Assembly (NCBI GenBank): GCA_021555105.2 | Contig: CP134604.1 | Location: 1,364,001 to 1,428,000 of the forward strand | DNA: 64,000 nt | Source of the DNA: Thalassospiraceae bacterium LMO-JJ14 | Lineage (GTDB): Bacteria > Pseudomonadota > Alphaproteobacteria > Rhodospirillales > Casp-alpha2 | Reading direction: 5' to 3' | Part shown: positions 11,010 to 27,001 of the stretch, in pieces | How the letters are laid out: each line of letters begins with the position of its first letter | Position numbering within the stretch: the stretch's first letter is position 1 | The notes under the pieces: model-generated | The model's database searches: none | What the model was told of the DNA's origin: nothing | Seen by the model: the letters and a program-made list of their open reading frames with translations, nothing else | Position numbers and translations under genes: made by a program

Positions 11010-13283
11010 TTGGTCTTTGAAGAAGACAAAGTACCCCGAAAACTGCGTAGCGAAGCGGAAGATATTTCGCGCTTCCGCGACTATGCCGATGCCGATGCGG
11101 ACTGGTTCTGGGAACTCGATCCGAATTATCGCTTCGCTATTGTTTCAATGCGCCGTGAGGGGCGGTCCTCGGTTCGCGAATTCGACCTCCTTGGAAAAAC
11201 GCCTTGGGAATTCGCCGATGCGGATCCTGACAGTGATCATGAATGGGCTGCGTTCGTCGACAGACTCCAACGCCGTGAGTCATTTCGCGATTTTCGGATA
11301 TCGTTACGCCAGAAGTCCGGCGGCCTCGTTTATTGGCGCCTCAGCGGCAAACCCGTTCTGGGCGCTGATGGCATGTTTTTTGGTTACCGCGGGATCGCCA
11401 CGGACGAGACCGTGGATGCGATCCGCCGCACCCAGCAGGAAACTCTCGCCGCCGATTATCAGCTGACACTGGAATCCATGAGTGAGGGCGTGGCGTATTT
11501 TGACGACCGCCAGCGCCTCAGTTTCACCAATCCGGCATTCAGGAATCTGTTGCCGTTGCCGAGTGAGCTCTTTCAGGTCGGGACCAGCTACAGCAATTTG
11601 ATCGCGTGTCTGGCGCCGTTGATTTCCGAAGACCGCCGTAAGGCGTCGCAAATTCGCCGTGTCCTTGGTCATGGTTTGATCGATTGGCATTTTCAGGATG
11701 GCCGTAAACTTGGCGGTGAGATGCGGGCCCTGCCGTCGGGACGGTACATCTTGGTCGTCAACGAGGTTGCCGAGGCCACGGGGGCTGGTGCTCAACCGAA
11801 GGGCGGCCTTTTTTATGATACGCTTGAGGTCTCCAAGCAGGCATTCATAACGCTTGTGAGAGGTACGGTTGTTTTCGCCAATCAGGCGGCGGCGGATACA
11901 TTCGGTTGCTCAATCGGTGAAATGCTGGGCCGCAAGGTTTGGGATTTCATTCATCCCGATGACCGTGAACGCTTGGATCACTTCAACGCCGACAAGCACA
12001 ACGGGATGAATGCCCCGGAATCCTCTAAGGCACAGGCAATTCGCGCCGATGGTGAAAATTTGTGCCTGGAATTTTTTGTGTACGACGGCCTATGGAACGG
12101 CCAGCAGGCGACGCAGGTATTTATGCAGGACCGCACGGCAGAGCAGCTTGCCGAACAGGCGCTGATCGGCAGTGAGCAGAAATACAGAAACCTGATCGAT
12201 GGCTCCATTCAGGGCATGTTCGTGCACCACGATTGGGAAATCCTCTATGCCAACGATACGGCGGCACAGATTTTCGGTTACGAAGTGGATGACTTCATTG
12301 GCCGTAGCGTTCTCGATCTTGTTTCGCCGCAAGAGCGCGGCGTGATTGCGGACATCCGCCGGCGTCGTCTTGCCGGTGACCAGGATGTGCCTGAACGATA
12401 TGAATTTTCAGGTGTACAGGCCAATGGCTCGAAAGTCGTTGTGGAGATTTTTTCAAGGCTTGTGGAATGGGAAGGTCATACGGCCATCCAGGCGACGCTG
12501 ATGGATATTACGCGGCGCCGGGAAATCGAACAGAATCTCATCACCGCCAAGGAAGCCGCGGAAAAGGCGGACCGTTCGAAAACGGAATTTCTCGGCAATA
12601 TGTCACACGAACTGCGTACGCCGCTGAACGCCATCATCGGATTTTCACAGTTGATCCGGGACAAGATCATGGGCGATCTGAATCCGCATTATGTCGATTA
12701 TGCGGGCTCGATCCATGCATCGGGGATGCATCTTCTGGAAGTCGTCAATGATCTGCTGGATGTCGCTTCCATCGAAAGCGGGGCGATGGTGTTGAGTGAG
12801 GACGATGTCGAACTGGCGGTCGTGATCAGGTCCTGTGAACGAATGCTGCGTACCCGTGTGCAAAAGGCTGAGCTTTTGATCTCGGTGGATATTTCTGAAA
12901 AGGGAATGTCGGTGCGGGGTGATCCAAGGCGGTTGAAGCAGATTCTCATCAACCTCGTCAATAATGCCATCAAGTTCACACGTCCCGGCGGGCATATCAT
13001 CGTGCGTGCCTATCATAACGACATCGGCGAGCCGGTTCTGGAAGTTGAAGACAGCGGTATCGGAATTTCCAAAGAGGACCAGAAGATCATCTTCGATGCG
13101 TTCATTCGCGTAAAATCAGCCTTTGTCAGCGAACGCGAAGGCACCGGTCTTGGTCTGCCGCTTGTGCATGCCCTGACGGAACTGCACGGGGGGCGCATTA
13201 CACTGGAAAGCGCCATCGGCAAGGGGACGAAAATCGCCGTAATTCTGCCGAAAGAGCGCATGTTGCGGACGGGATTCAGATAA
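11010..13283 (+). CDS. Multi-PAS sensor histidine kinase
   Basis: A 757-residue soluble hybrid-free kinase; no transmembrane segment is seen. Four PAS-type domains in order: about 15-130 (DADWFWELDPNYRF), 145-250, 268-385 (FVFANQ-like AAADTFGCSIGEMLGRKVWDFIHPDDR) and 388-505 (YANDTAAQIFGYEVDDFIGRSVLDLV). Then HisKA with phosphoacceptor His533 in NMSHELRTPLNAIIGF, and HATPase_c with NLVNNAIKFT (N box), DSGIGI (G1) and GTGLGLPLV (G2). No cognate response regulator lies next to it. The start is a TTG with GAGG just upstream; there is no better ATG until well into the first PAS domain. A terminator follows. Confidence 0.93.
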   Translation: MVFEEDKVPRKLRSEAEDISRFRDYADADADWFWELDPNYRFAIVSMRREGRSSVREFDLLGKTPWEFADADPDSDHEWAAFVDRLQRRESFRDFRISLRQKSGGLVYWRLSGKPVLGADGMFFGYRGIATDETVDAIRRTQQETLAADYQLTLESMSEGVAYFDDRQRLSFTNPAFRNLLPLPSELFQVGTSYSNLIACLAPLISEDRRKASQIRRVLGHGLIDWHFQDGRKLGGEMRALPSGRYILVVNEVAEATGAGAQPKGGLFYDTLEVSKQAFITLVRGTVVFANQAAADTFGCSIGEMLGRKVWDFIHPDDRERLDHFNADKHNGMNAPESSKAQAIRADGENLCLEFFVYDGLWNGQQATQVFMQDRTAEQLAEQALIGSEQKYRNLIDGSIQGMFVHHDWEILYANDTAAQIFGYEVDDFIGRSVLDLVSPQERGVIADIRRRRLAGDQDVPERYEFSGVQANGSKVVVEIFSRLVEWEGHTAIQATLMDITRRREIEQNLITAKEAAEKADRSKTEFLGNMSHELRTPLNAIIGFSQLIRDKIMGDLNPHYVDYAGSIHASGMHLLEVVNDLLDVASIESGAMVLSEDDVELAVVIRSCERMLRTRVQKAELLISVDISEKGMSVRGDPRRLKQILINLVNNAIKFTRPGGHIIVRAYHNDIGEPVLEVEDSGIGISKEDQKIIFDAFIRVKSAFVSEREGTGLGLPLVHALTELHGGRITLESAIGKGTKIAVILPKERMLRTGFR

Positions 13284-14595: not shown

Positions 14596-14742
14596 AGAGC
14601 GGTTACTCCTTAATTGCACACTAACCAAACCACCGGGCACGTTCCAGCGGCACAAAACAACGTCTGTCTGCGCAGGTCGTGTCTGGATAAAACTTTTCCG
14701 GGCGTGATAGGATCACGCCGAACAACGGGGGACACCCTTCAC

Positions 14743-15207
14743 GTGAGCAGCATTCTTGAGCGGTTTTCCGACCACACCCGGCGGATTTTCTCGCGCCATC
14801 GCGGCCGGGCCTTCCTTGAAGGCGCCATGGCGGCGTCGGCGCTTGTCGCGCTGGCGGATGGCGATGCATCGCTTGAAGAGGGGGCCGAGGTCGGCCGATT
14901 GATGCGGGTTCTGGATGTGCTGCGCGATCATCACCCCGAACAGGGCGTGGAGAGCTATCTGCGTTATATCGACACGCTGCGCAAAAACCCGGCCGAGGCC
15001 GAGGATGTCCGTCAAAAGGTCAAAGCGGCCGCCGGCACGGATCTGGAAGCGGCGGCGCTGCTGGTCGTGGTCTGCCATGCGATCAGCGAGGCGGACGGTA
15101 TCGTCAGGGTAAGCGAGATAGAAGAAATCGAACGCCTTTCAAAAATGCTCGGTGTTACGGCCGAGAGCGCGATCAATCTGATCGCTCCACAAGAAACAAT
15201 CGCATAA
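14743..15207 (+). CDS. TerB-like protein
   Basis: A 154-residue, all-helical TerB-family protein. The repeated acidic helices of the family are visible: ASALVALADGDASLEEGAEVGRLMRVLDVL (about 28-58) and a second copy VVVCHAISEADGIVRVSEIEEIERLSKMLGV (about 108-140). TerB domains bind metal ions and act in stress or membrane-associated complexes, but this is a lone copy without other ter genes. The start is GTG at 14743 with GGGGG about 11 bases upstream. Ends 14 bases before the CoA-transferase gene and may be co-transcribed with it. Confidence 0.8.
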   Translation: MSSILERFSDHTRRIFSRHRGRAFLEGAMAASALVALADGDASLEEGAEVGRLMRVLDVLRDHHPEQGVESYLRYIDTLRKNPAEAEDVRQKVKAAAGTDLEAAALLVVVCHAISEADGIVRVSEIEEIERLSKMLGVTAESAINLIAPQETIA

Positions 15208-16979: not shown

Positions 16980-18596
16980 ATGTCGACGGCACTGGAGAAT
17001 CTCAATCTGGAAGAAGGCAAGAGCGACACGCTCAGGGCCGTATTCGCAGGGATTGCCGAAGCCACTTCCGCAGATGGTGGTCCGCGCTATTCCGCGAAGG
17101 TCAGCCGCGAGCTGGCGCGAATTATCGTCTGCCGCAGTTATGCAAAACCGCTTTTGGAATTGTCGCATCTTTTGGTTGCGGCATCGGCAGGCCCCAGCCG
17201 GTACGAGGATCTGTTCTGGGGAATGCCGCGTGCCAGTGCGGGGGACTTTCGCCGCGCGTTCATGGCGCTGGATAACAGGAATGCGGATGTCTGGATAAGC
17301 GACAATGGGGTGCGTTACGAAGACGGTAATGGCGGTTTTCAGATATCCTATGGGCGGATGCCGTTGCTGGCGGCGCTATTGGAATTCATGGTCATGACCG
17401 TCGGTTATCCCGAGCTTGAGGGCATGACGGATACTTTGCGTCAACGAGATGTGGACAGTGAAGCTGTCCTCGATGCGGCACGCGCCCTGCAGCGTGGTCT
17501 TTATTCATATCTCAAGGCGCACCTGCCGGCCGTGCAGCGCCAGCGCCGCGAGCGGCATTTCCTGACCTATACGGATGCCCATGCGGGAAACCGTACCGGG
17601 ACCGAGGCCATCAACGACGATGTGGTGCTGGGATACTGGCAGACATATGCCGATTCTGACGAGATCGACGCCAAGACTTTCCGCGCCGTCTACGATACGG
17701 CCCGGAAACTGATTTCAGCCCTTGATGCCGCGCAGGAGCGACTTTCGGGGGCCTATGCAAAATCCATTGGCACGGATGTCGAGGCTGGCGAAGTCGACCC
17801 TGCGGACATGGAACGCGTGGTCGGTGCGCTTGACGAAGACGATGGGCCGCTTTTACGCCTGATTGAAATCTGTGATGAAAATGTGAAGTTCGTTAACGTG
17901 AACGAGGCCGAGACCCTGTCCGATTTGCCGCTCGGCGATGCAACGGCCAGGCGCATTCCGGTATCGGTACTGCGCAACGCCGTGTTCGGCGCGGTACAAC
18001 TGCGGATCAGCACGGCCTTGCGGCGCGGCAATATACCCAGGTCCGGCCTTCTCCCGGATGGGCAGGGGTATTACCTGGAAAGGCTGCAAGCCTACGCCGA
18101 CATCATCGCCGGCACGGAAAGATTGGCGTTGGCGGCGCTATGGGCGCTGCATCAATCCGCTCGCATCGAAGCCGTTGAACTTGCCCTCGCGCTTGCGCCG
18201 GATATCAACTGGGGACATCTGACCCCGCCGCAAACCGAAGCCGGCGGTGAAGATGTCGTGGATTTGGCGGCCATGGCGGCTGCGCGACAGTTCTTTGCCC
18301 TGTCGGCGGATGCCAAGGGCGACGAGATTCCGGCGCTGCTGTCCGACGCCCGGCGCGCGTGGCGAAGTGTCAACCGGACCGGGTTTCGCGATGAGGCGGA
18401 CGAAGAGACCCTTGATATCATGGCGGCTGGCGTGCCGGAGGTGTTGCGTCTGATCCAGTCCGTTCACCGCATACTTGGCCGTGAATTGGGTATGGTCGAT
18501 TGGACCGCCTTTGAAACCTCGGACATCGGCACCTTTGCGGCGATGTTCGATAAACTGTATGACCTTGGAGAGGAGGCGGATAGCCATGCCTGCTGA
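16980..18596 (+). CDS. Unknown protein A of a three-gene operon
   Basis: I do not recognise this 538-residue protein. It is rich in Ala, Leu, Arg, Glu and Asp, looks almost wholly helical, and has no signal peptide, transmembrane segment, P-loop or metal motif. Regions that look ordered include about 165-210 (AARALQRGLYSYLKAHLPAVQRQRRERHF...) and 330-430 (RIPVSVLRNAVFGAVQLRISTALRRGN... with YLERLQAYADIIAGTERLALAALWALHQSARIEAVELALALAPDINW). Stop overlaps the start of protein B by 11 bases. Start at 16980 is an ATG preceded by a weak purine-rich stretch; a TTG at 16947 would add 11 residues. Probably a cytoplasmic scaffold or sensor for B and C (inference). Confidence 0.8.
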   Translation: MSTALENLNLEEGKSDTLRAVFAGIAEATSADGGPRYSAKVSRELARIIVCRSYAKPLLELSHLLVAASAGPSRYEDLFWGMPRASAGDFRRAFMALDNRNADVWISDNGVRYEDGNGGFQISYGRMPLLAALLEFMVMTVGYPELEGMTDTLRQRDVDSEAVLDAARALQRGLYSYLKAHLPAVQRQRRERHFLTYTDAHAGNRTGTEAINDDVVLGYWQTYADSDEIDAKTFRAVYDTARKLISALDAAQERLSGAYAKSIGTDVEAGEVDPADMERVVGALDEDDGPLLRLIEICDENVKFVNVNEAETLSDLPLGDATARRIPVSVLRNAVFGAVQLRISTALRRGNIPRSGLLPDGQGYYLERLQAYADIIAGTERLALAALWALHQSARIEAVELALALAPDINWGHLTPPQTEAGGEDVVDLAAMAAARQFFALSADAKGDEIPALLSDARRAWRSVNRTGFRDEADEETLDIMAAGVPEVLRLIQSVHRILGRELGMVDWTAFETSDIGTFAAMFDKLYDLGEEADSHAC

Positions 18597-19119
18597 CGAT
18601 CCTGTCCGGAAACTGGCCCTCGCCGCGCTTGATGCCGATGCGCAGGCGCGCGATCTGCTTGATGCATCTGCCGCAACCGCGACGCGTCTCGCAGTTTCGG
18701 TGCTGTATCGTTACGCAAGTGACCTGAGCTACGAGCTTTCCCCCGCCGATGCGCAAAAACTGGCATCGGACGATGCCGCACAGGCGGATCTCGCCGGTCT
18801 GATCGCAGCCAACGCTTTTGCCTATATGCCGCGGCAGGCGGCGGCGGCATCCGGGGCGGTCTCGCGCCGCGAGAGCGGGACGGCGGTACTTACCTTAACG
18901 CCGTCACAAGCGGAACCGGGGCAGGTTTATCTGGGCATCGAACTTTTTGATCCGGAAGCGCCGCCGCCGGTGCATCTGTTCATCAGGCACGCCGATGGCC
19001 CGTGGCGCCGTATTCAGTTGCCGCCCTTCAGCGGCGCCAGGGCACAAATGTTACTCGATGCGACAGGTGAAACCGCCTCTGCGCTGGCGGATCCCGAGAC
19101 GGAGGTTTATCTCCGTTGA
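18586..19119 (+). CDS. Unknown protein B of a three-gene operon
   Basis: A 177-residue protein I do not recognise. The N-terminal half (1-85) is helical and alanine-rich (LALAALDADAQARDLLDASAATATRLAVSVLYRYASDL). The C-terminal half (about 95-177) alternates short strands and prolines (SGTAVLTLTPSQAEPGQVYLGIEL, PVHLFIRHADGPWRRIQLPPFSGARAQMLLD) like a small beta-sandwich. No signal peptide or membrane segment. Its start overlaps the end of gene A and has a strong GGAGAGGAGG upstream. Its stop TGA overlaps the TTG start of gene C (TTGA), so A, B and C should be made together, suggesting a complex. Confidence 0.8.
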   Translation: MPADDPVRKLALAALDADAQARDLLDASAATATRLAVSVLYRYASDLSYELSPADAQKLASDDAAQADLAGLIAANAFAYMPRQAAAASGAVSRRESGTAVLTLTPSQAEPGQVYLGIELFDPEAPPPVHLFIRHADGPWRRIQLPPFSGARAQMLLDATGETASALADPETEVYLR

Positions 19120-20378
19120 ACGGTGCCGCATTTTTTATTCTGACGACAGAAGGCCCGGTCGCGATTCAACGCATCAGCGAAGAAGATCCGGCCGTCCGTT
19201 CCGTCATCTGCCTCGACGGACTAACGCAGATTCTGCCGATCAGTGCGTCTTATGAAGCGTTCGTTCGCAGTCCCGCCGGTGTGATCGAACGGATGACCGG
19301 ACACGGCGCTTATCGGATGGATGTTGCGGCAAGGATCGACGAAGGCCGATCATGGCAGCTAGCGGCATTTCTTGCTCATGCGGCCCGGCTGAAAGGCGGG
19401 GCGGGGGAGATTACGGTTTTTGCCACCGGCGAAGTCGACAGCGCGCTTGCAGTGCGCCCGGTCGAACATGTCGATCTGAAACTGAAGGCGCTGGCACGGT
19501 TCCTTGCGGACAATGAAATCGCATCTGAAAAAGCGGTTGTCCTGGTGCCGGATAGCACGGCCGATCTCCCGGATCAGATTGCAGGCATTCCGCTCAGAAA
19601 GCTCAGCAGCATTCCCGAAGCGTTGCAAGTGACGGGGATTGAAATGCCGCCGCCATCGCAGGGGCGTGGCGCTGGTGACGCAGGTGCCACCCTGGCGCGG
19701 CGCCAGCGGACACGGACGCTGCCATTTCTGTTTGCCGCAGCTTTGATCGCGGCCGCTCTTTTCTGGGTTGGCGGAGACTTCGCCCGCTGGTCGGCTTTAT
19801 TTGAACAGGGCCGGATACTCGAGCTTGAACAGGATATGGCAAAGGCCGGAGAAGACGGTTTCGGGCGTCTGCGAGCGGACGCATACAGGGTGTGGCGCGA
19901 CTTATCGAAACCTGGGGAGGTGCCTGATCTTTCCGGCGCGCTGTTTGTCACCGAGCAGTTTGCGGATTGCGCCGATACGTCGAAGCGACGAAAACGACCG
20001 ATGACACCGGTGTTCAAGGAAGCCGGCACCGTCTGCATGGTGGAAATCCGCGGCGTTGCCGCTGGCGGCGCGGTGCTGATCGGCAGGCTTGCTTACTGGC
20101 CGGATGGCCTTGGTCAGGGCGAGCGGTCGGCGCGGACAATGCGCGGCAGCCAAGAACCCTCGGGTCGCACCTGGACGCTGGAATTCGACAATCCACCACA
20201 ACCGGGCGCGGCATTGCGGCTCGTCGTTATTTCCGGTGCGGTTGATGTTCGCGGATCGCAACCGTGGTATCAGGACCTGTTGGCCGCCCCCCTCGACAGC
20301 GCGGTCTTTAACGCCGCCCAGGAGCGGTTGACAAGCCTCGGCTTCGAAGTGACGGCGCTGGACTGGCAGCGTCAGTGA
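19116..20378 (+). CDS. Membrane protein C with Lon(S16)-like N-terminal domain
   Basis: A 420-residue protein with one transmembrane helix (201-220) between a cytoplasmic and a periplasmic part. By eye, residues 60-170 follow the Lon protease S16 fold: a strand then DEGRSWQLAAFLAHA (Lon has KDGPSAG with the catalytic Ser; here Ser79), then ATGEVDSALAVRPVEHVDLKLKALARF (Lon: TGEx...VLPIGGxKEKxLAA), then VVLVPDSTADLPD and SSIPEAL as in the Lon C-terminus. The position of the catalytic Lys aligns with Asp120, so the domain may be inactive or use Lys122. The periplasmic part (221-420) has two Cys (284, 307). TTG start with GGAGGT upstream. The S16 link is an inference from pattern, not a search. 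Confidence 0.75.
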   Translation: MNGAAFFILTTEGPVAIQRISEEDPAVRSVICLDGLTQILPISASYEAFVRSPAGVIERMTGHGAYRMDVAARIDEGRSWQLAAFLAHAARLKGGAGEITVFATGEVDSALAVRPVEHVDLKLKALARFLADNEIASEKAVVLVPDSTADLPDQIAGIPLRKLSSIPEALQVTGIEMPPPSQGRGAGDAGATLARRQRTRTLPFLFAAALIAAALFWVGGDFARWSALFEQGRILELEQDMAKAGEDGFGRLRADAYRVWRDLSKPGEVPDLSGALFVTEQFADCADTSKRRKRPMTPVFKEAGTVCMVEIRGVAAGGAVLIGRLAYWPDGLGQGERSARTMRGSQEPSGRTWTLEFDNPPQPGAALRLVVISGAVDVRGSQPWYQDLLAAPLDSAVFNAAQERLTSLGFEVTALDWQRQ

Positions 20379-20397: not shown

Positions 20398-21627
20398 TCA
20401 GGCTTTTTGCAGGACGAACTGGCCGACGTCGATGGCGCCCGATCTGAAACCGGCTTGGCAATAGGCGAGATAATATTCCCATAACCGGCGGAAGCGCTCG
20501 TCGAAGCCGTGCCGTCTTATTTCGGGCCAGGCCCCGGTGAACCTGGACTGCCATTCGCCAAGTGTTTGCGCGTAACTTTGACCGAAAAAGAATGCATCCT
20601 TCAGATCCAGCCCGCCCAGGCGGGCGTTTTCGCGGAAGGCCTCGACGGAAGGCAGCATGCCGCCCGGGAACACATAACGCTGGATGAAATCCGCTTTAAT
20701 GCGATAGCTGTCGAAGCGGTTCTCATGGATGGTGATCACCTGCAGCGCGGCGCGGCCGTGATCGGCAAGGCGGTTGCGCAGCCCGGCAAAAAAATGCGGC
20801 CAGTTGTTCTCGCCGACGGCTTCGAACATCTCAATCGAGGCGATGCCGTCATATTTGCCGGCAACGTCGCGATAATCCTCGATGCGGATATCGACGCGCC
20901 CATTCAGTCCTTTCCGTGCAATTTGCTCGGTGGCAAAATCGTGCTGCGCGTTCGACAACGTTATACCGGTCACGCGGCAGCCGTGCTGCTCGGCCAGATA
21001 GGCGGAAAAGCCGCCCCAGCCACAACCGATTTCCAGGATGTGCTGGCCGGGTTTGGCGCCGATCATCTCCGCCATGCGCCGGTATTTGCGCAGCTGCGCG
21101 CGTTCCAGCGGGTCGTTTGGGCAGTCATAAATGCCTGATGAGTACGTCATCGTCGGGTCCAGCCACTCACGATAGAAGGCATTGCCCAGATCATAATGCG
21201 CCTGAATGTTGCGCCGCGAGCCGCGCCGCGTGTTGGCGCGGAGCAGATGATATACTCGGTCGATGATGCGCCGGAACCGCGTGCCTTCGACCTTGAACTC
21301 GATGGCTTCATCATTTCTGGCGATGAGTTCCAACAACGCATTGAGATCCGACGTCGACCAGTCGGCATCGATATAGCCTTCGGCGAAACCGATATCGCCG
21401 CCGGTAAATAACCGGCGGATCGCACGCCAGGAATGAATAATGAAATCAGCAGCCGGGCCGGGGACCGTGCCGGTGAACGTTTTCATTTCGCCATTCGGCA
21501 GTGTCAGCGTCAGCGTGCCGGTGCGGATGCCGGATGCCAGCCTGAACAGCCATTTGTCGGCGAGAGAGGGCGATTGCCCCTGCAATGCCGGGGCGGGCGT
21601 GCCGGTTCTGCTGTAAACGATACCCAT
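20398..21627 (-). CDS. Cyclopropane-fatty-acyl-phospholipid synthase family methyltransferase
   Basis: A 409-residue SAM-dependent methyltransferase acting on unsaturated acyl chains of membrane phospholipids. Seen: AHYDLGNAFYREWLDPTMTYSSGIY (substrate/bicarbonate region), the SAM loop ILEIGCGWGGFSAYLAE, and IASIEMFEAVGENNWPHFFAGL, then IQRYVFPGGMLPS. Last gene of an operon with DUF1365 and an FAD oxidoreductase, driven by an RpoE-type promoter. In Rhodobacter the RpoE-ChrR regulon includes CfaA and the methylated-furan fatty-acid methyltransferase UfaM, both of this family, so the product could be a cyclopropane or a furan/methylated fatty acid; sequence alone does not decide. Confidence 0.93.
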   Translation of the reverse strand: MGIVYSRTGTPAPALQGQSPSLADKWLFRLASGIRTGTLTLTLPNGEMKTFTGTVPGPAADFIIHSWRAIRRLFTGGDIGFAEGYIDADWSTSDLNALLELIARNDEAIEFKVEGTRFRRIIDRVYHLLRANTRRGSRRNIQAHYDLGNAFYREWLDPTMTYSSGIYDCPNDPLERAQLRKYRRMAEMIGAKPGQHILEIGCGWGGFSAYLAEQHGCRVTGITLSNAQHDFATEQIARKGLNGRVDIRIEDYRDVAGKYDGIASIEMFEAVGENNWPHFFAGLRNRLADHGRAALQVITIHENRFDSYRIKADFIQRYVFPGGMLPSVEAFRENARLGGLDLKDAFFFGQSYAQTLGEWQSRFTGAWPEIRRHGFDERFRRLWEYYLAYCQAGFRSGAIDVGQFVLQKA

Positions 21628-21646
21628 TTCAGTTTCCCTGTGTTCT

Positions 21647-22438
21647 TTAAAGTTCGGGTTTTATGATGCTGACATCGCCACGCTGCTGTGGCTTGTGCGA
21701 GAAATACGGGATGCCTTTCCGCCATAGCCGAAAGGCTTCGTAGTGAATGCCGGCGATGACCTTCAGCGTCATCAGCGGGTGGCGCAGCATCGCAGAGATC
21801 AGTTTTCGTGTGCTCAAATCTTCGCGGACGCCGGTAAAACTGGCGTTCAGCAGCGGCCCGCTTTCGTCGGATTGGCGGATCACCACGCACACCTTGTCGT
21901 TCGGCGGCAGGATGGAAAAATCGTACCGACAGTCCATCGGTGTGAAAGGCGACACATACATTGCCTTGTCACAGGCCTGATGAATGGGGGTGACGGTGCC
22001 CGGTTCCATATCGCTATCGACGGGCAGGACGTAGGTATGCCTTTCGCCGTAGGTATTGTTGACCTGATATAATATGACCCGTGTCCGGCCGCCGTCGTCA
22101 TCGCAGAAATAGACGGTCAACGGGTTGAACACATAGCCGAGGATGCGTGGATAACAAAGAACGCGGACGTTCAAAGCGGTGGCATCGAACCCGGCGTCGC
22201 TCAGTTTCTGATCGACCCAGGAACGGAGACTGCCCGAACCGGCACCGTGATCGCGTTCAAGGAACGACAGCAACCCCCAGCGGTTTATTCTCAAGACAGA
22301 CTGTTGTCCTGCAATCTCGTCCAGTTGGTCGAGGTCGAGCAGCAGCGAAAACACCCGGTATTCCAGAAAATGGGTCTTCGGCCGCAGCCTGCGGTGCACG
22401 ACGCGGCCGGTGTATATGGCGCCGAAATCCCCGGTCAT
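21647..22438 (-). CDS. DUF1365 family protein
   Basis: A 263-residue DUF1365 protein, starting IYTGRVVHRRLRPKTHFLEYRVFSLLLDLDQLDE as is typical for the family, with RVLCYPRILGYVFNPLTVYFCDD in the middle and PFTPMDCRYDFSILPPND after it. The biochemical role is not established; the family nearly always sits between an FAD-dependent oxidoreductase and a cyclopropane-synthase homologue, so a part in modifying membrane fatty acids is likely. Its ATG overlaps the upstream gene's stop (ATGA). Ends 20 bases before the methyltransferase start. Confidence 0.93.
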   Translation of the reverse strand: MTGDFGAIYTGRVVHRRLRPKTHFLEYRVFSLLLDLDQLDEIAGQQSVLRINRWGLLSFLERDHGAGSGSLRSWVDQKLSDAGFDATALNVRVLCYPRILGYVFNPLTVYFCDDDGGRTRVILYQVNNTYGERHTYVLPVDSDMEPGTVTPIHQACDKAMYVSPFTPMDCRYDFSILPPNDKVCVVIRQSDESGPLLNASFTGVREDLSTRKLISAMLRHPLMTLKVIAGIHYEAFRLWRKGIPYFSHKPQQRGDVSIIKPEL

Positions 22439-23769
22439 GCGGCGCAGACCTCGGCCGGTGGGGCGAGATGAATGCGTCCCGACTCATCGTCCACGGTCCA
22501 GGGGCGGCGCACTGCACCGGCGCTTTCCGCCGCCCAGAGACCGGACTGCAATCCATCCTCGTGAAACCCGGTGCCGAAATAACTGCCGCAATACCAGGTG
22601 CGGCGGTGCCCCTGCAGACGCCAGAGCTGTTGCTGCGCATCGTTGGTATGGTTGTCGAACAGGGGATGATCGTAATGAAAGGTGCGGAGAATCTTCTCGT
22701 TAGCCGGCGGCCTTACCGGATTAAGAGTTACGAACAGATTCCCGGCATCGCCCAGATTCTGAAGATTATTCATCCAGTAAGTGACGCAGACGGCATGTGC
22801 ATCACCGGCCTCGGTCGGGCGTGCAATGTAATTCCAGCTCGACCATGTGCGGCGCCGTATCGGCATCAGGTCTGTATCGTTGTGCAGTACCGCGAGGTTC
22901 CGCTGGTACTTGAACGGCGACAGCAGGTTGCGCTCCATATCGTCGGCATCGTCCAGCATTTTGAGGGTTTCGTCGGCATGTGCGGCCATGATGACGGCGT
23001 CGAAGCGATCCTCGTGGCCTTTGCTGTCAATCACGGTGACGCCGTGCGCGTTACGGCGAATGGCCCGCACACCGCCGGTTCGGGCCGGAATACCCGCGGC
23101 AATCTTTTCCACATAGGATCGGCTGCCACCGGTGACGGTGTGCCAGGCAGGGCGCCCGACATATTTAAACAAGCCGTGGTTGACGAAGAACCTGACAAAT
23201 GCGGCGGCTGGATAGTCGCGCATCCCTTCAGCGGTGCCTGACCAGATCGCGGCAGCCATCGGCAACAGGTGATCGCGCTGGAACCCCGGCGAATAACCGC
23301 CCTGGTCCAGCAATGCTCCCAGCGTCATATTTTCGAGTTCACCTTCCGCCAGCATCATGGGTGCTGTCGAATAGAAACGGTGCAGGTCCATCAGCATGCG
23401 CCAGAAACGCGGTTTGATGATGTTTGACGGCTGAGCGAACACGCCGGCCAGTGTGCCGCCTGAATATTCGAATTTGCCGTCATCGGCCGAAACCGCGAAC
23501 GACATATCCGACGCATGCGTGGCGACGCCCAGATGCTGCAACAGGGCCTTGAAATTCGGATACGTCCAGTCATTGAAGACAATGAAGCCGGTATCGACAT
23601 CTACAGTACCTGACGGTCCTGGTACGCTCACCGTATTTGCATGTCCGCCGAGCCTGTTTTCGCGTTCATACAGGACAACTTCATGACGTCCCGACAATAA
23701 CCAGGCGGCAGAAAGTCCGGAAATTCCGGCGCCGATGACGGCGTATCGTTTTGCGGGGCCTTCTTTCAT
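22435..23769 (-). CDS. FAD-dependent amine-oxidase-fold protein
   Basis: A 444-residue flavoprotein of the protoporphyrinogen/phytoene-desaturase-like superfamily. N-terminal dinucleotide motif AVIGAGISGLSAAWLLSGRHEVVLYERENRLGGHANT binds FAD; ATGFHEDGLQSGLWAAESAG near the C-terminus is the closing FAD motif. First gene of the operon with DUF1365 and the cyclopropane-synthase homologue; probably oxidises or desaturates the fatty-acyl product. The promoter TGATCC-N16-CGTA on this strand (23820-23845) puts it under RpoE, which responds to singlet oxygen in relatives. Confidence 0.92.
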   Translation of the reverse strand: MKEGPAKRYAVIGAGISGLSAAWLLSGRHEVVLYERENRLGGHANTVSVPGPSGTVDVDTGFIVFNDWTYPNFKALLQHLGVATHASDMSFAVSADDGKFEYSGGTLAGVFAQPSNIIKPRFWRMLMDLHRFYSTAPMMLAEGELENMTLGALLDQGGYSPGFQRDHLLPMAAAIWSGTAEGMRDYPAAAFVRFFVNHGLFKYVGRPAWHTVTGGSRSYVEKIAAGIPARTGGVRAIRRNAHGVTVIDSKGHEDRFDAVIMAAHADETLKMLDDADDMERNLLSPFKYQRNLAVLHNDTDLMPIRRRTWSSWNYIARPTEAGDAHAVCVTYWMNNLQNLGDAGNLFVTLNPVRPPANEKILRTFHYDHPLFDNHTNDAQQQLWRLQGHRRTWYCGSYFGTGFHEDGLQSGLWAAESAGAVRRPWTVDDESGRIHLAPPAEVCAA

Positions 23770-23819
23770 GTCGGCTGCCTTTTTTAATCTCGTCTGCGTT
23801 TTCGTTGTAGCAAACCTTT

Positions 23820-23845
23820 TACGCAGCCGGTTTTGCCATGGATCA
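23820..23845 (-). promoter_or_regulatory. RpoE (ECF11-type) promoter, left operon
   Basis: On the minus strand, TGATCC (complement of 23840-23845), exactly 16 bases, then CGTAAA (CGTA is the complement of 23820-23823). The -10 element lies 50 bases upstream of the FAD-oxidoreductase start. The architecture equals that of the opposite promoter at 23864-23889, and TGATC(C) is the known -35 of RpoE-ChrR-type ECF sigma factors. Confidence 0.8.
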
Positions 23846-23863
23846 CCAAATTAATCCGGCAAA

Positions 23864-23889
23864 TGATCCGTTGCCGAAGAAGGTGCGTA
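23864..23889 (+). promoter_or_regulatory. RpoE (ECF11-type) promoter for rpoE-chrR
   Basis: TGATCC at 23864-23869, 16-base spacer, CGTA at 23886-23889. It directs transcription of rpoE-chrR, so the sigma factor would control its own operon. Predicted transcription start is near 23896, leaving a leader of about 110 bases before the chosen rpoE start at 24007. An ATG at 23899 in the same frame would give a near-leaderless, longer form; I consider it less likely. Confidence 0.8.
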
Positions 23890-24006
23890 CTACCTAGTAT
23901 GAGTTATGGCATCGATACTGCGAATACATGGACTGGGAGAAGGTTTCCGCTTTCTGCCGCAACCGCCGTTCGCCTTGATCAACGGCGCAGGCCTGTCGGG
24001 TGGACG

Positions 24007-24582
24007 ATGACGGATGAAACGGACACGGCGGAAACAGCGGACGGCGCTACGTCATTGATGCATCGCGTCGCGGCGTCGGGTGATCGACAGGCCTTTGCCG
24101 TTCTGTTCGCCCATTTCGCTCCGCGCGTGAAATCCTACATGTTGAAACTCGGCACCAATGACTCGCTCGCCGATGAGCTGGCGCAAGAAACCCTGCTGAT
24201 GGTCTGGCGTAAAGCCGGGCAGTTCGACCGTGCCAAGGCATCGCCGTCGACGTGGATATTCACCATCGCACGAAATCTGAGGATCGATGCATTTCGCAAG
24301 ATATCCAGACCGGAACTGGATCCGAACGATCCGGCACTGGTCCCCGATCACGAAGAACCGCAGGATGACCGCGTCGTCCGTTTACAACAGGCGCAAAAAG
24401 TGCGCGACGCGATGGCCTTGCTCAATGAAGAGCAATCGGAAGTCGTGCGGTTGTCCTTTTTTGAAGACATGAGCCACAGCGCTATTGCAGAGCGCCTCGG
24501 GCTTCCGTTGGGAACGGTGAAATCAAGACTGCGCTTGGCCTTTTCGAAAATTCGCGATGCCGTCGGAGAGAGTTTGAAATGA
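24007..24582 (+). CDS. rpoE: ECF sigma factor, RpoE of the RpoE-ChrR pair
   Basis: A 191-residue extracytoplasmic-function sigma factor. Region 2 at about 30-95 (FAVLFAHFAPRVKSYMLKLG...ADELAQETLLMVWRKAGQFD...WIFTIARNLRIDAFRK) contacts the -10 element; region 4 at about 130-185 (LNEEQSEVVRLSFFEDMSHSAIAERLGLPLGTVKSRLRLAFSKIRDAV) is the -35 helix-turn-helix. The partner anti-sigma gene overlaps its stop by four bases. In relatives this sigma is freed by singlet oxygen and organic peroxides. The start at 24007 gives the normal length; the frame is open back to 23833. Confidence 0.94.
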   Translation: MTDETDTAETADGATSLMHRVAASGDRQAFAVLFAHFAPRVKSYMLKLGTNDSLADELAQETLLMVWRKAGQFDRAKASPSTWIFTIARNLRIDAFRKISRPELDPNDPALVPDHEEPQDDRVVRLQQAQKVRDAMALLNEEQSEVVRLSFFEDMSHSAIAERLGLPLGTVKSRLRLAFSKIRDAVGESLK

Positions 24583-25235
24583 CGATTCAGCATCATATTC
24601 CTGATGAAACGCTTGTGTCCTATGCCGCGGGCGATCTGGACGACGCGACGTCGCTGGTGGTGGCGACGCATCTGGCATTGTGCCCGTCTTGCCGCAGGTC
24701 GGTTGCCGTCGCAGACGATATCGGCGGCGTCATGCTGGATGAACTGATGCCGGCCCGTATGTCGGATGATGCGCTCGCACATGTGTTGGCGCTAACTGAA
24801 CGCCCACTCACGGAAACAGCGCGGCCCGAACCGGCGTCTTCACATGCGGCGGTCGTTTTTCCGGAACCGCTTCGCCGGCGCATTGGCGGTGATCTGGATG
24901 ATGTCAGGTGGAAACGTATCGGCCCCGGTGTGCAGCAATTGAAGCTCGAAAATCCGGATAATGCATCTCAGGCACGGCTGCTCAGGATCGCTGGCGGACA
25001 GGGCGTTCTGGAGCACGGTCACACCGGCGAAGAATTTACGTTGGTTCTTGCCGGTGGCTTTTCGCACGGCACTCAGTCGTTCGCGCGTGGTGACGTCGAA
25101 TGGGCCGATACAGAAATCATACACCACCCGGTGGCCGATGAAGGCGAGGGATGTGTATGCCTGGCCGTGACATCGGGTCCCCTGAAATTCTTCGATATTT
25201 TCGGTAAAATTGCCCAACCTTTCATCGGCATATGA
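24579..25235 (+). CDS. chrR: ChrR-type zinc anti-sigma factor
   Basis: A 218-residue ChrR protein that holds RpoE inactive in the cytoplasm. The N-terminal ZAS domain has His5/His6 and His31-x3-Cys35-x2-Cys38 (HLALCPSC), the zinc site that locks the sigma factor. The C-terminal cupin domain (about 100-218) keeps the metal ligands of ChrR: HGHTGEEFTLVLAGGF near 145-160 and the later IIHHPVADEGEGC. In Rhodobacter the cupin domain is needed for the singlet-oxygen response. Translationally coupled to rpoE (ATGA overlap). Confidence 0.95.
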   Translation: MTIQHHIPDETLVSYAAGDLDDATSLVVATHLALCPSCRRSVAVADDIGGVMLDELMPARMSDDALAHVLALTERPLTETARPEPASSHAAVVFPEPLRRRIGGDLDDVRWKRIGPGVQQLKLENPDNASQARLLRIAGGQGVLEHGHTGEEFTLVLAGGFSHGTQSFARGDVEWADTEIIHHPVADEGEGCVCLAVTSGPLKFFDIFGKIAQPFIGI

Positions 25236-25358: not shown

Positions 25359-25841
25359 TTGAAGTATATAGATTATTTATCTTTCATCTTCATATTGGGG
25401 CTTGCCTCGGGCGTGGTTGGCTGTGCGGACGTAAGCGTTGAAAAAACCCGGACTTTCAATCCAGACGTTCAACCGCTTTTGAAACAACTCCACATGCAAT
25501 ACGGTTCAATGGCTTTGCGTAAGCAAAACGAAGGCAACCCGGACTCTGTACACCACTTCAACGCCAAAGCCCTGCAAGCGGCCGAAGGGCTGGTTGTGAA
25601 GGCAGATCAGCCTGCGGATGACGAGAGCCGAGATGCTTACCGGCGCCTGACGGCGGGGTTAACAGAAGCTGCCATGCCTGTGGACCCGGCCGTTAAGGCT
25701 AGGGCGCAGGTTATGTTCGATTGCTGGCTAGATGAGCGGGCGCAAGGCGTGGACAAGGATGATATCAAAGCCTGCAAACAGGAATTCGAGCGTGCGCTCC
25801 TGTCGATTGAAAGCGCATCAAGCGGCGTGGCTTTCCAATGA
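25359..25841 (+). CDS. Putative lipoprotein related to OmpA-family N-termini
   Basis: A 160-residue exported protein. The N-terminus MKYIDYLSFIFILGLASGVVGC is a lipoprotein signal with a lipobox at VVGC, so Cys22 should be lipidated. The C-terminal stretch MFDCWLDERAQGVDKDDIKACKQEFERAL resembles the FDCWxEQ...DIAACR segment found ahead of the OmpA domain in some alphaproteobacterial outer-membrane lipoproteins, but no peptidoglycan-binding OmpA domain follows. Two cysteines there may form a disulfide. Function unknown. TTG start; its last four bases overlap the downstream receiver-kinase gene. Confidence 0.7.
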   Translation: MKYIDYLSFIFILGLASGVVGCADVSVEKTRTFNPDVQPLLKQLHMQYGSMALRKQNEGNPDSVHHFNAKALQAAEGLVVKADQPADDESRDAYRRLTAGLTEAAMPVDPAVKARAQVMFDCWLDERAQGVDKDDIKACKQEFERALLSIESASSGVAFQ

Positions 25842-27001
25842 CGCTCAATCTCATCATTGTTGACGGGAATCCGGCGGATCTTGCGATCATTCGGCGTATG
25901 CTGAACTCAAGCGATCTTGATGTCGAGCTTACCGAATTGGTTTGTGCGCGTGATTTCCTCGCGTTGCCGCTCTCTGAATACGATTGCGCCTTGATTGATG
26001 CCCGGCTTCCTGACCGTGACGGCATAGAGTCACTGGCCGAATCCTGTAGCGGGAAATCCTATCCACCGTGCCCGATGATCGTGATGTCGAACCACGGGGA
26101 CGAGCATACGGCTGCGCGTGCCTTCAAGGCAGGGGCCAACGATTATCTGATCAAAGACTCGATGACGCCGAACAGTCTTAGGCGGACCGTCGTCAATGCC
26201 ATCGACAAATGGCATACAGAAGATGCGATGCGCAATGACTGGGAATGGCAACGGCATGCACTTCGCGATGCTGAACGCGCGAATACCGCCAAATCGCGGT
26301 TCATCGCCAATCTTTCCCATCAGCTGCGCACGCCACTGACGACTATCATAGGTTTCTCGGAGCTTATCGAAGTTGCCGGTCTTGGCGACGATCGAGAAAA
26401 CTGGGAAAGATATAAACACTATGCTGGCCATATCAGCAGTTGCGCGCGCGAAGTCCTGGAATTGATGAACGGGATTATCGATCTGGCGCGCATTGAAAAT
26501 GGCGAAACCCCGGTTACCACGTCCAGCTTTGATCCGAGGCAGGCGCTGAAAGAAGTAATCGATGCCTTTTCAGAACACGCAATAAATGCCCATGTTGGAC
26601 TTCGTGTCGATGACCGGATGGCGCCGCATTTAATGGTTTCGGACGATCGTGCCATCATGGTCATTATGACCAACCTTTTGTCGAACGCTATCAAGTTCAC
26701 ACCTGCCGGGCGGCACGTTCAGGTGCATTTACGGGAACTGGATGGTGATAAATGCCTGTTTTCCGTCGCTGATGCCGGGTCTGGGATGACGCCGGATGAC
26801 CTGCGTGAGGTGACGCGGCCCTTCGAACAGTACAGGGCGCAAGTCATGTCGTCCGGGAATGAAGTAGGTATCGGATTGCCCCTGGTGAACTCGCTTGTCC
26901 AGACGCTGGGCGGCGATCTGAAATTCGACACCACGCCAGGCATAGGCACGACGGCGACGGTGGTTTTGCCGAAATCGGTTTCCGGTGAGGCCTCGCAGTA
27001 A
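25838..27001 (+). CDS. Receiver-histidine kinase fusion
   Basis: A 387-residue soluble protein with an N-terminal receiver domain (1-120: Asp9, phosphoacceptor Asp54 in LIDARLPDRDG, Lys105 in DYLIKDS) joined to HisKA (His160 in NLSHQLRTPLTTIIGF) and HATPase_c (LLSNAIKFT, DAGSGM, GIGLPLVNS). The residue after the phospho-His is Gln, not the usual acidic one, seen in a minority of kinases and possibly slowing autophosphorylation. The second G2 glycine pattern is also slightly off (VGIGLPL). Receiver-first kinases relay a signal from another kinase. ATGA overlap with the upstream lipoprotein suggests they work together. Confidence 0.88.
   Translation: MTLNLIIVDGNPADLAIIRRMLNSSDLDVELTELVCARDFLALPLSEYDCALIDARLPDRDGIESLAESCSGKSYPPCPMIVMSNHGDEHTAARAFKAGANDYLIKDSMTPNSLRRTVVNAIDKWHTEDAMRNDWEWQRHALRDAERANTAKSRFIANLSHQLRTPLTTIIGFSELIEVAGLGDDRENWERYKHYAGHISSCAREVLELMNGIIDLARIENGETPVTTSSFDPRQALKEVIDAFSEHAINAHVGLRVDDRMAPHLMVSDDRAIMVIMTNLLSNAIKFTPAGRHVQVHLRELDGDKCLFSVADAGSGMTPDDLREVTRPFEQYRAQVMSSGNEVGIGLPLVNSLVQTLGGDLKFDTTPGIGTTATVVLPKSVSGEASQ

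Follow-up and report, generated by a model that had tools for sequence, protein, structure and literature searches.

A translationally coupled gene trio encoding a putative membrane-anchored Lon-type protease in Alpha- and Gammaproteobacteria

The stretch of Thalassospiraceae bacterium LMO-JJ14 DNA analyzed here (contig CP134604.1, positions 1,364,001 to 1,428,000; 64,000 nucleotides, hereafter the window, whose own numbering is used throughout) contains three overlapping genes, which we call A, B and C, and the last of them appears to encode a membrane-anchored Lon-type protease. The genome is a single contig of 3.89 Mb. Gene A (16980..18596, +) runs from an ATG start to a TGA stop and encodes 538 amino acids, gene B (18586..19119, +; ATG start, TGA stop) encodes 177 and gene C (19116..20378, +; TTG start, TGA stop) encodes 420. 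A and B overlap by 11 nucleotides (18586..18596, +), and B and C share the 4-nucleotide stop-start overlap TTGA (19116..19119, +). The open reading frames (ORFs) lie exactly where a first-pass annotation of the sequence had placed three overlapping genes. The start codons are consistent with those of homologues, and the 4-nucleotide B/C overlap recurs in most of 54 homologous loci, which were collected by a degenerate-pattern scan of named genomes using a pattern derived from alignment A4. Because homologues occur in A-B-C order in both Alpha- and Gammaproteobacteria, these are not chance ORFs: A, B and C are real, translationally coupled genes. None of the three window proteins matched anything above the curated cut-off in Pfam, NCBIfam or PADLOC, and in the public record of a plasmid that carries a distant relative, the proteins occupying the places of A, B and C have no annotation beyond ‘hypothetical protein’. 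Around the genes no sigma-70-like promoter was found, and terminator-like sites showed no clear excess over shuffled sequences; both results are uninformative for this organism.

The N-terminal part of C is where a relationship to known proteins emerges. A Lon protease fold had earlier been traced through residues 60-170 of C, and structure and profile comparisons bear this out and widen it, the whole of residues 1-178 (19116..19649, +) being predicted to form a Lon (S16) proteolytic domain. In Foldseek searches with the AlphaFold model of C (predicted local distance difference test, pLDDT, 89), the top matches were Lon and RadA Lon-like domains, with E-values down to 5e-6. VIA comparison of residues 1 to about 178 with Lon, RadA and LonC domains gave Z scores of 13-15 at 2.7-4 Å, and against Lon, LonB and LonC 150-180 residues of the model were aligned, again at Z 13-15; the fold recovered by structure search is that of S16. 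A profile of the N-terminal domain matched almost exclusively Lon proteases or CalpL in the PDB, at modest significance (best E 0.004). Since these matches point the same way and the fold agrees, we consider the Lon-type assignment, drawn from sequence profiles and a predicted model, to be firm despite the E-values. Run against whole genomes, the profile of C also picked up ordinary Lon and LonB-like proteases as weak matches, and among the 54 C members the PADLOC models CARF_LON, CRISPR-Lon and SAVED_LON_TM matched 19, 9 and 9 proteins, respectively (best E 6e-5). Pfam’s Lon model was absent among the matches up to E 1 when the 54 members were scanned as single sequences. The similarity is found only at the level of profile and fold, and for this reason we call C Lon-type rather than a member of the Pfam Lon family. 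Judged by these profiles, its nearest described relatives are the CRISPR-associated CARF-Lon and SAVED-Lon effectors.

The putative active site is strikingly constant. Ser79 (19350..19352, +), the equivalent of the catalytic serine, lies in a G-x-S-W-Q motif within the region aligned to CalpL, and Lys122 (19479..19481, +) is the equivalent of the catalytic lysine; both are invariant in 54/54 sequences. HMMER alignments pair Lys122 with Lys625 of MtaLonC and, in archaeal LonB, with the GGVTQK lysine. The catalytic lysine position had previously been assigned to Asp120 (19473..19475, +), which proved mistaken, as column counts show this position to be variable, with the commonest residue at 24%. 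The MtaLonC serine is residue 582, according to the titles of S582A entries, and the spacing between serine and lysine is 43 in both proteins (79-122 in C, 582-625 in MtaLonC). In E. coli Lon, S679 and K722 are likewise 43 residues apart. Among the 54 C homologues, some of them just 21-30% identical to the window protein, the only invariant columns are Tyr46, Ser79, Trp80, Gly105 and Lys122. With Ser79 and Lys122 invariant at the 43-residue spacing, the dyad looks intact rather than degenerate.

This conservation bears on the possibility that the Lon domain of C has lost its catalytic activity and serves as a scaffold, like those of RadA and ComM, with ABC being a purely structural or signaling complex. 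The Lon-like domains of these two proteins are indeed among the closest folds to C in VIA (Z 15 for RadA and 13 for ComM), and the family signature G-x-S-W-Q, which replaces the S-A-G of Lon, places a tryptophan rather than a small residue after Ser79. However, the exact dyad has been kept across highly divergent sequences, which would not be expected of a dead scaffold, and sequence profiles match proteolytic Lons and CalpL, not RadA. We therefore judge this alternative quite improbable.

Beyond its Lon domain, C departs from the usual composition of these proteases. No ATPase module was found by family scan or in the model, in which the Lon domain is joined by nothing but one span and a C-terminal domain, and the window protein gave no match to a PDZ domain. 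The core of a single transmembrane helix is located by hydropathy at residues 202-220 (19719..19775, +) and corresponds to a helix at 203-230 in the model, in keeping with the earlier description of C as a single-span protein. The span is preceded by RRQRTR, and lysine and arginine are more numerous before it than after it in 40 of the 50 homologues with a clear span (mean 3.9 versus 1.6). From this positive-inside charge pattern, the Lon domain is predicted to be cytoplasmic and the C-terminus periplasmic. The predicted periplasmic part (residues 227-420; 19794..20375, +) consists of helices followed by a beta domain in the secondary structure of the model. It holds the two cysteines that had also been noticed, and placed in the periplasm, by the first-pass annotation: Cys285 (19968-19970, +), conserved in 47/52 homologues, and Cys307 (20034-20036, +), conserved in 46/52. 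As both are conserved, a disulphide between them is likely.

In other members of the family the architecture varies. The C-terminal part is swapped for DUF4384 in one homologue (L032, Pfam E 3e-13) and, by eye, similarly in another (L031), and a third (L056:9124-11745, +) combines the Lon domain with a Ser/Thr kinase-like domain recognized by its motifs, followed by a span and a TonB-like C-terminus. A DUF4384 or kinase-like domain in other C proteins is as would be expected of a signaling module. Separately, one C homologue (L028, G033:C40) is interrupted by a single in-frame TGA, which may reflect a broken copy or a sequencing error.

The two proteins encoded alongside C have no such recognizable relatives. 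A is almost all-helical in its AlphaFold model (pLDDT 87.5; predicted template modeling score, pTM, 0.78) and probably cytoplasmic, with no recognizable ATPase. Searches of this model against the PDB returned nothing at E<=0.001 with Foldseek and a best Z of 5.0 with VIA, which does not in itself prove a new fold. A also gave weak matches to DUF7873 (E 0.005) and Cas11e (E 0.013), which we set aside as single-member or sub-threshold. Library scans gave no family match for B, and the profiles of A and B produced chance-level matches only against the PDB. From its sequence, B is predicted to comprise an N-terminal alpha part and a C-terminal beta part, joined at residues 85-90 (AAAASG; 18838..18855, +). 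In the B alignment (A7, 52 rows; the corresponding alignment of A, A6, has 47), Ala85 is conserved in 50/52 sequences, Ala86 in 48/52 and Ala87 in 52/52, making this the most conserved run within the examined residues 76-124. Because C has no unfoldase and this hinge is conserved in a dedicated partner, it would be a plausible site for a specific cut; we infer that the Ala-Ala-Ala hinge is a candidate cleavage site.

The three genes are inherited together to a remarkable degree. C was found in 13/61 relatives, in 38/317 genomes of the order and in about 14 of the 398 genomes sampled across the phylum. The last count leaves out four weak profile matches (L047-L050), which proved to be ordinary Lon or LonB-like proteases and were rejected as C members. 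The 54 named loci are mostly from Rhodospirillales (Terasakiella, Nisaea, Thalassobaculum, Aestuariispira and Curvivirga), with some from Gammaproteobacteria. A-B-C order is kept throughout, with A recognized in 52, B in 53 and C in all 54. Of the 317 genomes surveyed in the order, 37 hold both A and C, 3 only A and 1 only C (Fisher p ~1e-43); in these last four the match is a fragment or sits on a small contig, as expected from contig breaks. The A-B-C linkage is near-obligate. Together with the neighborhood survey of the 54 loci, in which homologues of all three were found side by side, this upholds the earlier proposal that A, B and C form one unit. Of the first-pass interpretation as a whole, the Lon fold, the single unit, the span and the cysteines thus stand, the position of the catalytic lysine does not, and an undescribed complex of A, B and C is plausible.

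These data also speak to a more mundane role, in which C would carry out housekeeping quality control by degrading inner-membrane proteins that are damaged or orphaned, and A and B would serve as adaptors for its substrates. A membrane anchor and membership of the Lon family would suit such a protease, and there is a parallel in YlbL of Bacillus subtilis, a membrane-anchored Lon-PDZ protein without an AAA+ module that contributes to the removal of a membrane protein (PMC6051672). Yet the patchy distribution, with C in so few genomes of the order, is ill-suited to housekeeping, and a trio kept so strictly together points to a dedicated substrate. There is also neither an unfoldase in C nor a recognizable ATPase or known fold in A. 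A housekeeping function is in our view decidedly improbable.

The surroundings of the trio differ between loci. Some genomes carry two divergent ABC copies (L024 and L032 in G052; L022 and L029 in G007), and in G052 one copy lies inside the envelope operon described below, while the other adjoins different secreted-protein genes. On Methylobacterium aquaticum plasmid pMaq22A_2p (L062, L178) the order is a caspase family gene, a hypothetical gene, A, B, C, a trypsin-like serine protease gene and an OmpA-family gene, bringing three different protease types together. Downstream of another divergent ABC (L060:4997-7814, -) lies a Sel1-repeat-like protein, then a piece resembling a formylglycine-generating-enzyme (FGE) domain, and at L058 a separate kinase-like gene is located two genes upstream of A.

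In relatives, ABC is frequently embedded in a long operon with the order N6, N9, N3, A, B, C, N7, N5, N8, N10, N4S, N4L, N12. N3 is an SLT lytic transglycosylase (Pfam E ~1e-25). By eye, N6 is a secreted, CsgG-like protein, N7 and N12 are lipoproteins, N5 is a secreted coiled coil and N10 is a polytopic protein with an ExbB/MotA-like TTVVGLP segment; N9 has one span, N8 is a small secreted protein, and N4S and N4L are TonB-like and proline-rich. Profiles of N10 and N9 gave chance-level matches only against the PDB, with none to MotA, ExbB or ExbD, and Pfam MotA_ExbB was matched by one N10 member only, at E 0.78. The SLT gene, A, B, C, N7, N5 and N10 all occur together in at least 23/54 named loci, many of the others being short contigs, and 26 of the 28 genomes of the order with N10 also have C. 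The arrangement is not rigid: the second half of the operon lies upstream in two gammaproteobacterial loci (L151, L162) and on the opposite strand in a third (L157), and it is also on the opposite strand in the alphaproteobacterial L167. This frequent residence of ABC in an envelope operon suggests an envelope signaling system not yet described.

In the genus of the window, ABC is on its own, flanked by a thioesterase-like gene on one side and a cyclopropane-fatty-acid-synthase-like cluster on the other, and it keeps these neighbours across the genus. Profile searches for N10 and N5, by which the presence of the envelope module was assessed, found neither in the window genome. In the genus mate G001, ABC occupies one site by itself, and the module N9-N3-N7-N5-N8-N10-N4S-N4L lies elsewhere (L171, contig C4, 1-16000) with no ABC in it. 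ABC and the module are therefore separable units that often travel together.

The same context is informative about a role in defense. As a relative of the SAVED/CARF-Lon (CalpL) proteins with an envelope trigger, ABC could be an anti-phage or programmed-death system: its nearest described Lon domains belong to CRISPR-associated effectors, and caspase, trypsin-like, FGE-like or kinase-like genes accompany it at some loci. Against this, Pfam and PADLOC scans of the window C protein out to E 5 showed no CARF or SAVED domain, the C-terminal part alone not having been structure-searched. ABC also holds the same neighbours across its genus, and its usual context is an envelope operon, not a defense island. 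With a Terasakiella C protein as the query, none of 50,697 phage records matched, and among 72,556 plasmid records there was a single weak match. We regard a defense system as unlikely, while granting it some weight.

The reading that we favor, with moderate confidence and by sequence, model and analogy, is that ABC is a three-protein inner-membrane signaling protease in which C would be activated by a change in the envelope and would cut a partner, most plausibly B. We infer its activity, topology, complex formation, the role of B as substrate and the sensing of the envelope. In C, a span and a two-cysteine periplasmic domain would take the place of an ATPase motor, with the catalytic domain in the cytoplasm, and a protease with no unfoldase would perform limited, specific cleavage and not protein degradation. 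A, as a large helical adaptor, and B, with its alpha-hinge-beta layout, would be its dedicated cytoplasmic partners. Sensing of an envelope change would fall to the periplasmic part of C or, in relatives, to the surrounding envelope machine, and the signal would pass through the span to activate the Lon domain. This domain would then cut its dedicated partner, most plausibly B at the near-invariant Ala-Ala-Ala hinge, and the cut would release or destroy a cytoplasmic signal, with a fragment or freed A passing the signal on. The working model is CalpL, a ligand-activated, ATPase-less Lon that specifically cleaves CalpT, one of its two partners (PMC11417357), and YlbL offers a precedent for an anchored ATPase-less Lon that functions in cells.

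Several points weigh against this signaling protease. The topology of C is predicted solely from hydropathy and charge. The invariant tryptophan after Ser79 may mean that the oxyanion and S1 geometry differ, and the conserved hinge of B could instead be structural. Moreover, the window genome is without the envelope module, so ABC must work independently of it there. A wider proposal, which we advance only tentatively, is that ABC is the regulatory core of a hitherto undescribed trans-envelope machine of Alpha- and Gammaproteobacteria, in which an ion-driven unit of the inner membrane, TonB-like links, lipoproteins of the outer membrane and a lytic transglycosylase would be coupled to the anchored, ATPase-less Lon protease. 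The latter would convert the state of the envelope into cleavage of a cytoplasmic partner, and the window genus would have a stand-alone derivative. ABC also opens a way into an alpha- and gammaproteobacterial operon whose dozen conserved genes are nearly all without a family assignment. The invariant Ser79 and Lys122 provide clean knock-out points, and the hinge of B provides a precise substrate prediction.

Elsewhere in the window, positions 20398-25235 hold cyclopropane-fatty-acid-synthase-like, DUF1365-like, amine-oxidase-like, ECF sigma and ChrR-like anti-sigma genes, which by eye form a singlet-oxygen stress regulon; it adjoins ABC across the genus and is probably unrelated. A small TerB-like-looking protein (ALADGDASLEEGAEVGRLMR) is encoded at 14614-15207 (+) and is conserved upstream of ABC in the genus. 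On either side of the region are two genes of the sensor-kinase type (11010-13283 and 25838-27001) whose kinase parts are related, the second starting with a receiver domain.

The Lon domain itself is of a known kind, and it is in what surrounds the domain that ABC parts from described systems. Within MEROPS S16, E. coli Lon, archaeal LonB and MtaLonC share with C the fold (Z 13-15) and the 43-spaced Ser-Lys dyad, but C has no AAA+ ATPase and carries S-W-Q, not S-A-G, at the nucleophile. RadA and ComM have a non-proteolytic Lon-like domain fused to an ATPase, and C differs from them in its invariant dyad as well as in its lack of an ATPase. CalpL and the other SAVED-Lon and CARF-Lon effectors of type III CRISPR resemble C in having an ATPase-less Lon proteolytic domain that is similar by profile. 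As no CARF or SAVED sensor was detected, we do not file C as a CalpL-family effector; its C-terminus is instead a span and a predicted periplasmic two-cysteine domain. Nor did A and B match sigma or anti-sigma factors, in comparison with the CalpL partners, and no type III CRISPR system or nucleotide cyclase was recognized among the recurring neighbours of ABC, which were not scanned for every Cas family. YlbL likewise has a membrane-anchored Lon domain and no AAA+ module, but it also contains a PDZ domain, and its protease part is believed to lie outside the cytoplasm, whereas the Lon domain of C is predicted to be cytoplasmic and to have A and B as partners. Because C gave no PDZ match, it is not filed as YlbL either. 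By eye only, the operon of relatives recalls Tol-Pal and Exb-TonB in its polytopic, one-span and TonB-like proline-rich proteins and its lipoproteins; it adds a lytic transglycosylase and the Lon trio, and its N10 and N9 gave no significant match to those systems. In the literature searched (open-licence papers only) we found no description of the architecture of C, its two partners or the operon, and the whole word ‘Lon’ was not found in the main text of papers on nucleoside triphosphate (NTP)-dependent or diversity-generating retroelement (DGR)-linked conflict systems. Lon is usually an ATP-driven degradation machine, and the ABC family would represent a second branch in which the Lon domain acts as a switch, standing beside the CRISPR Lon effectors and wired here across the inner membrane.

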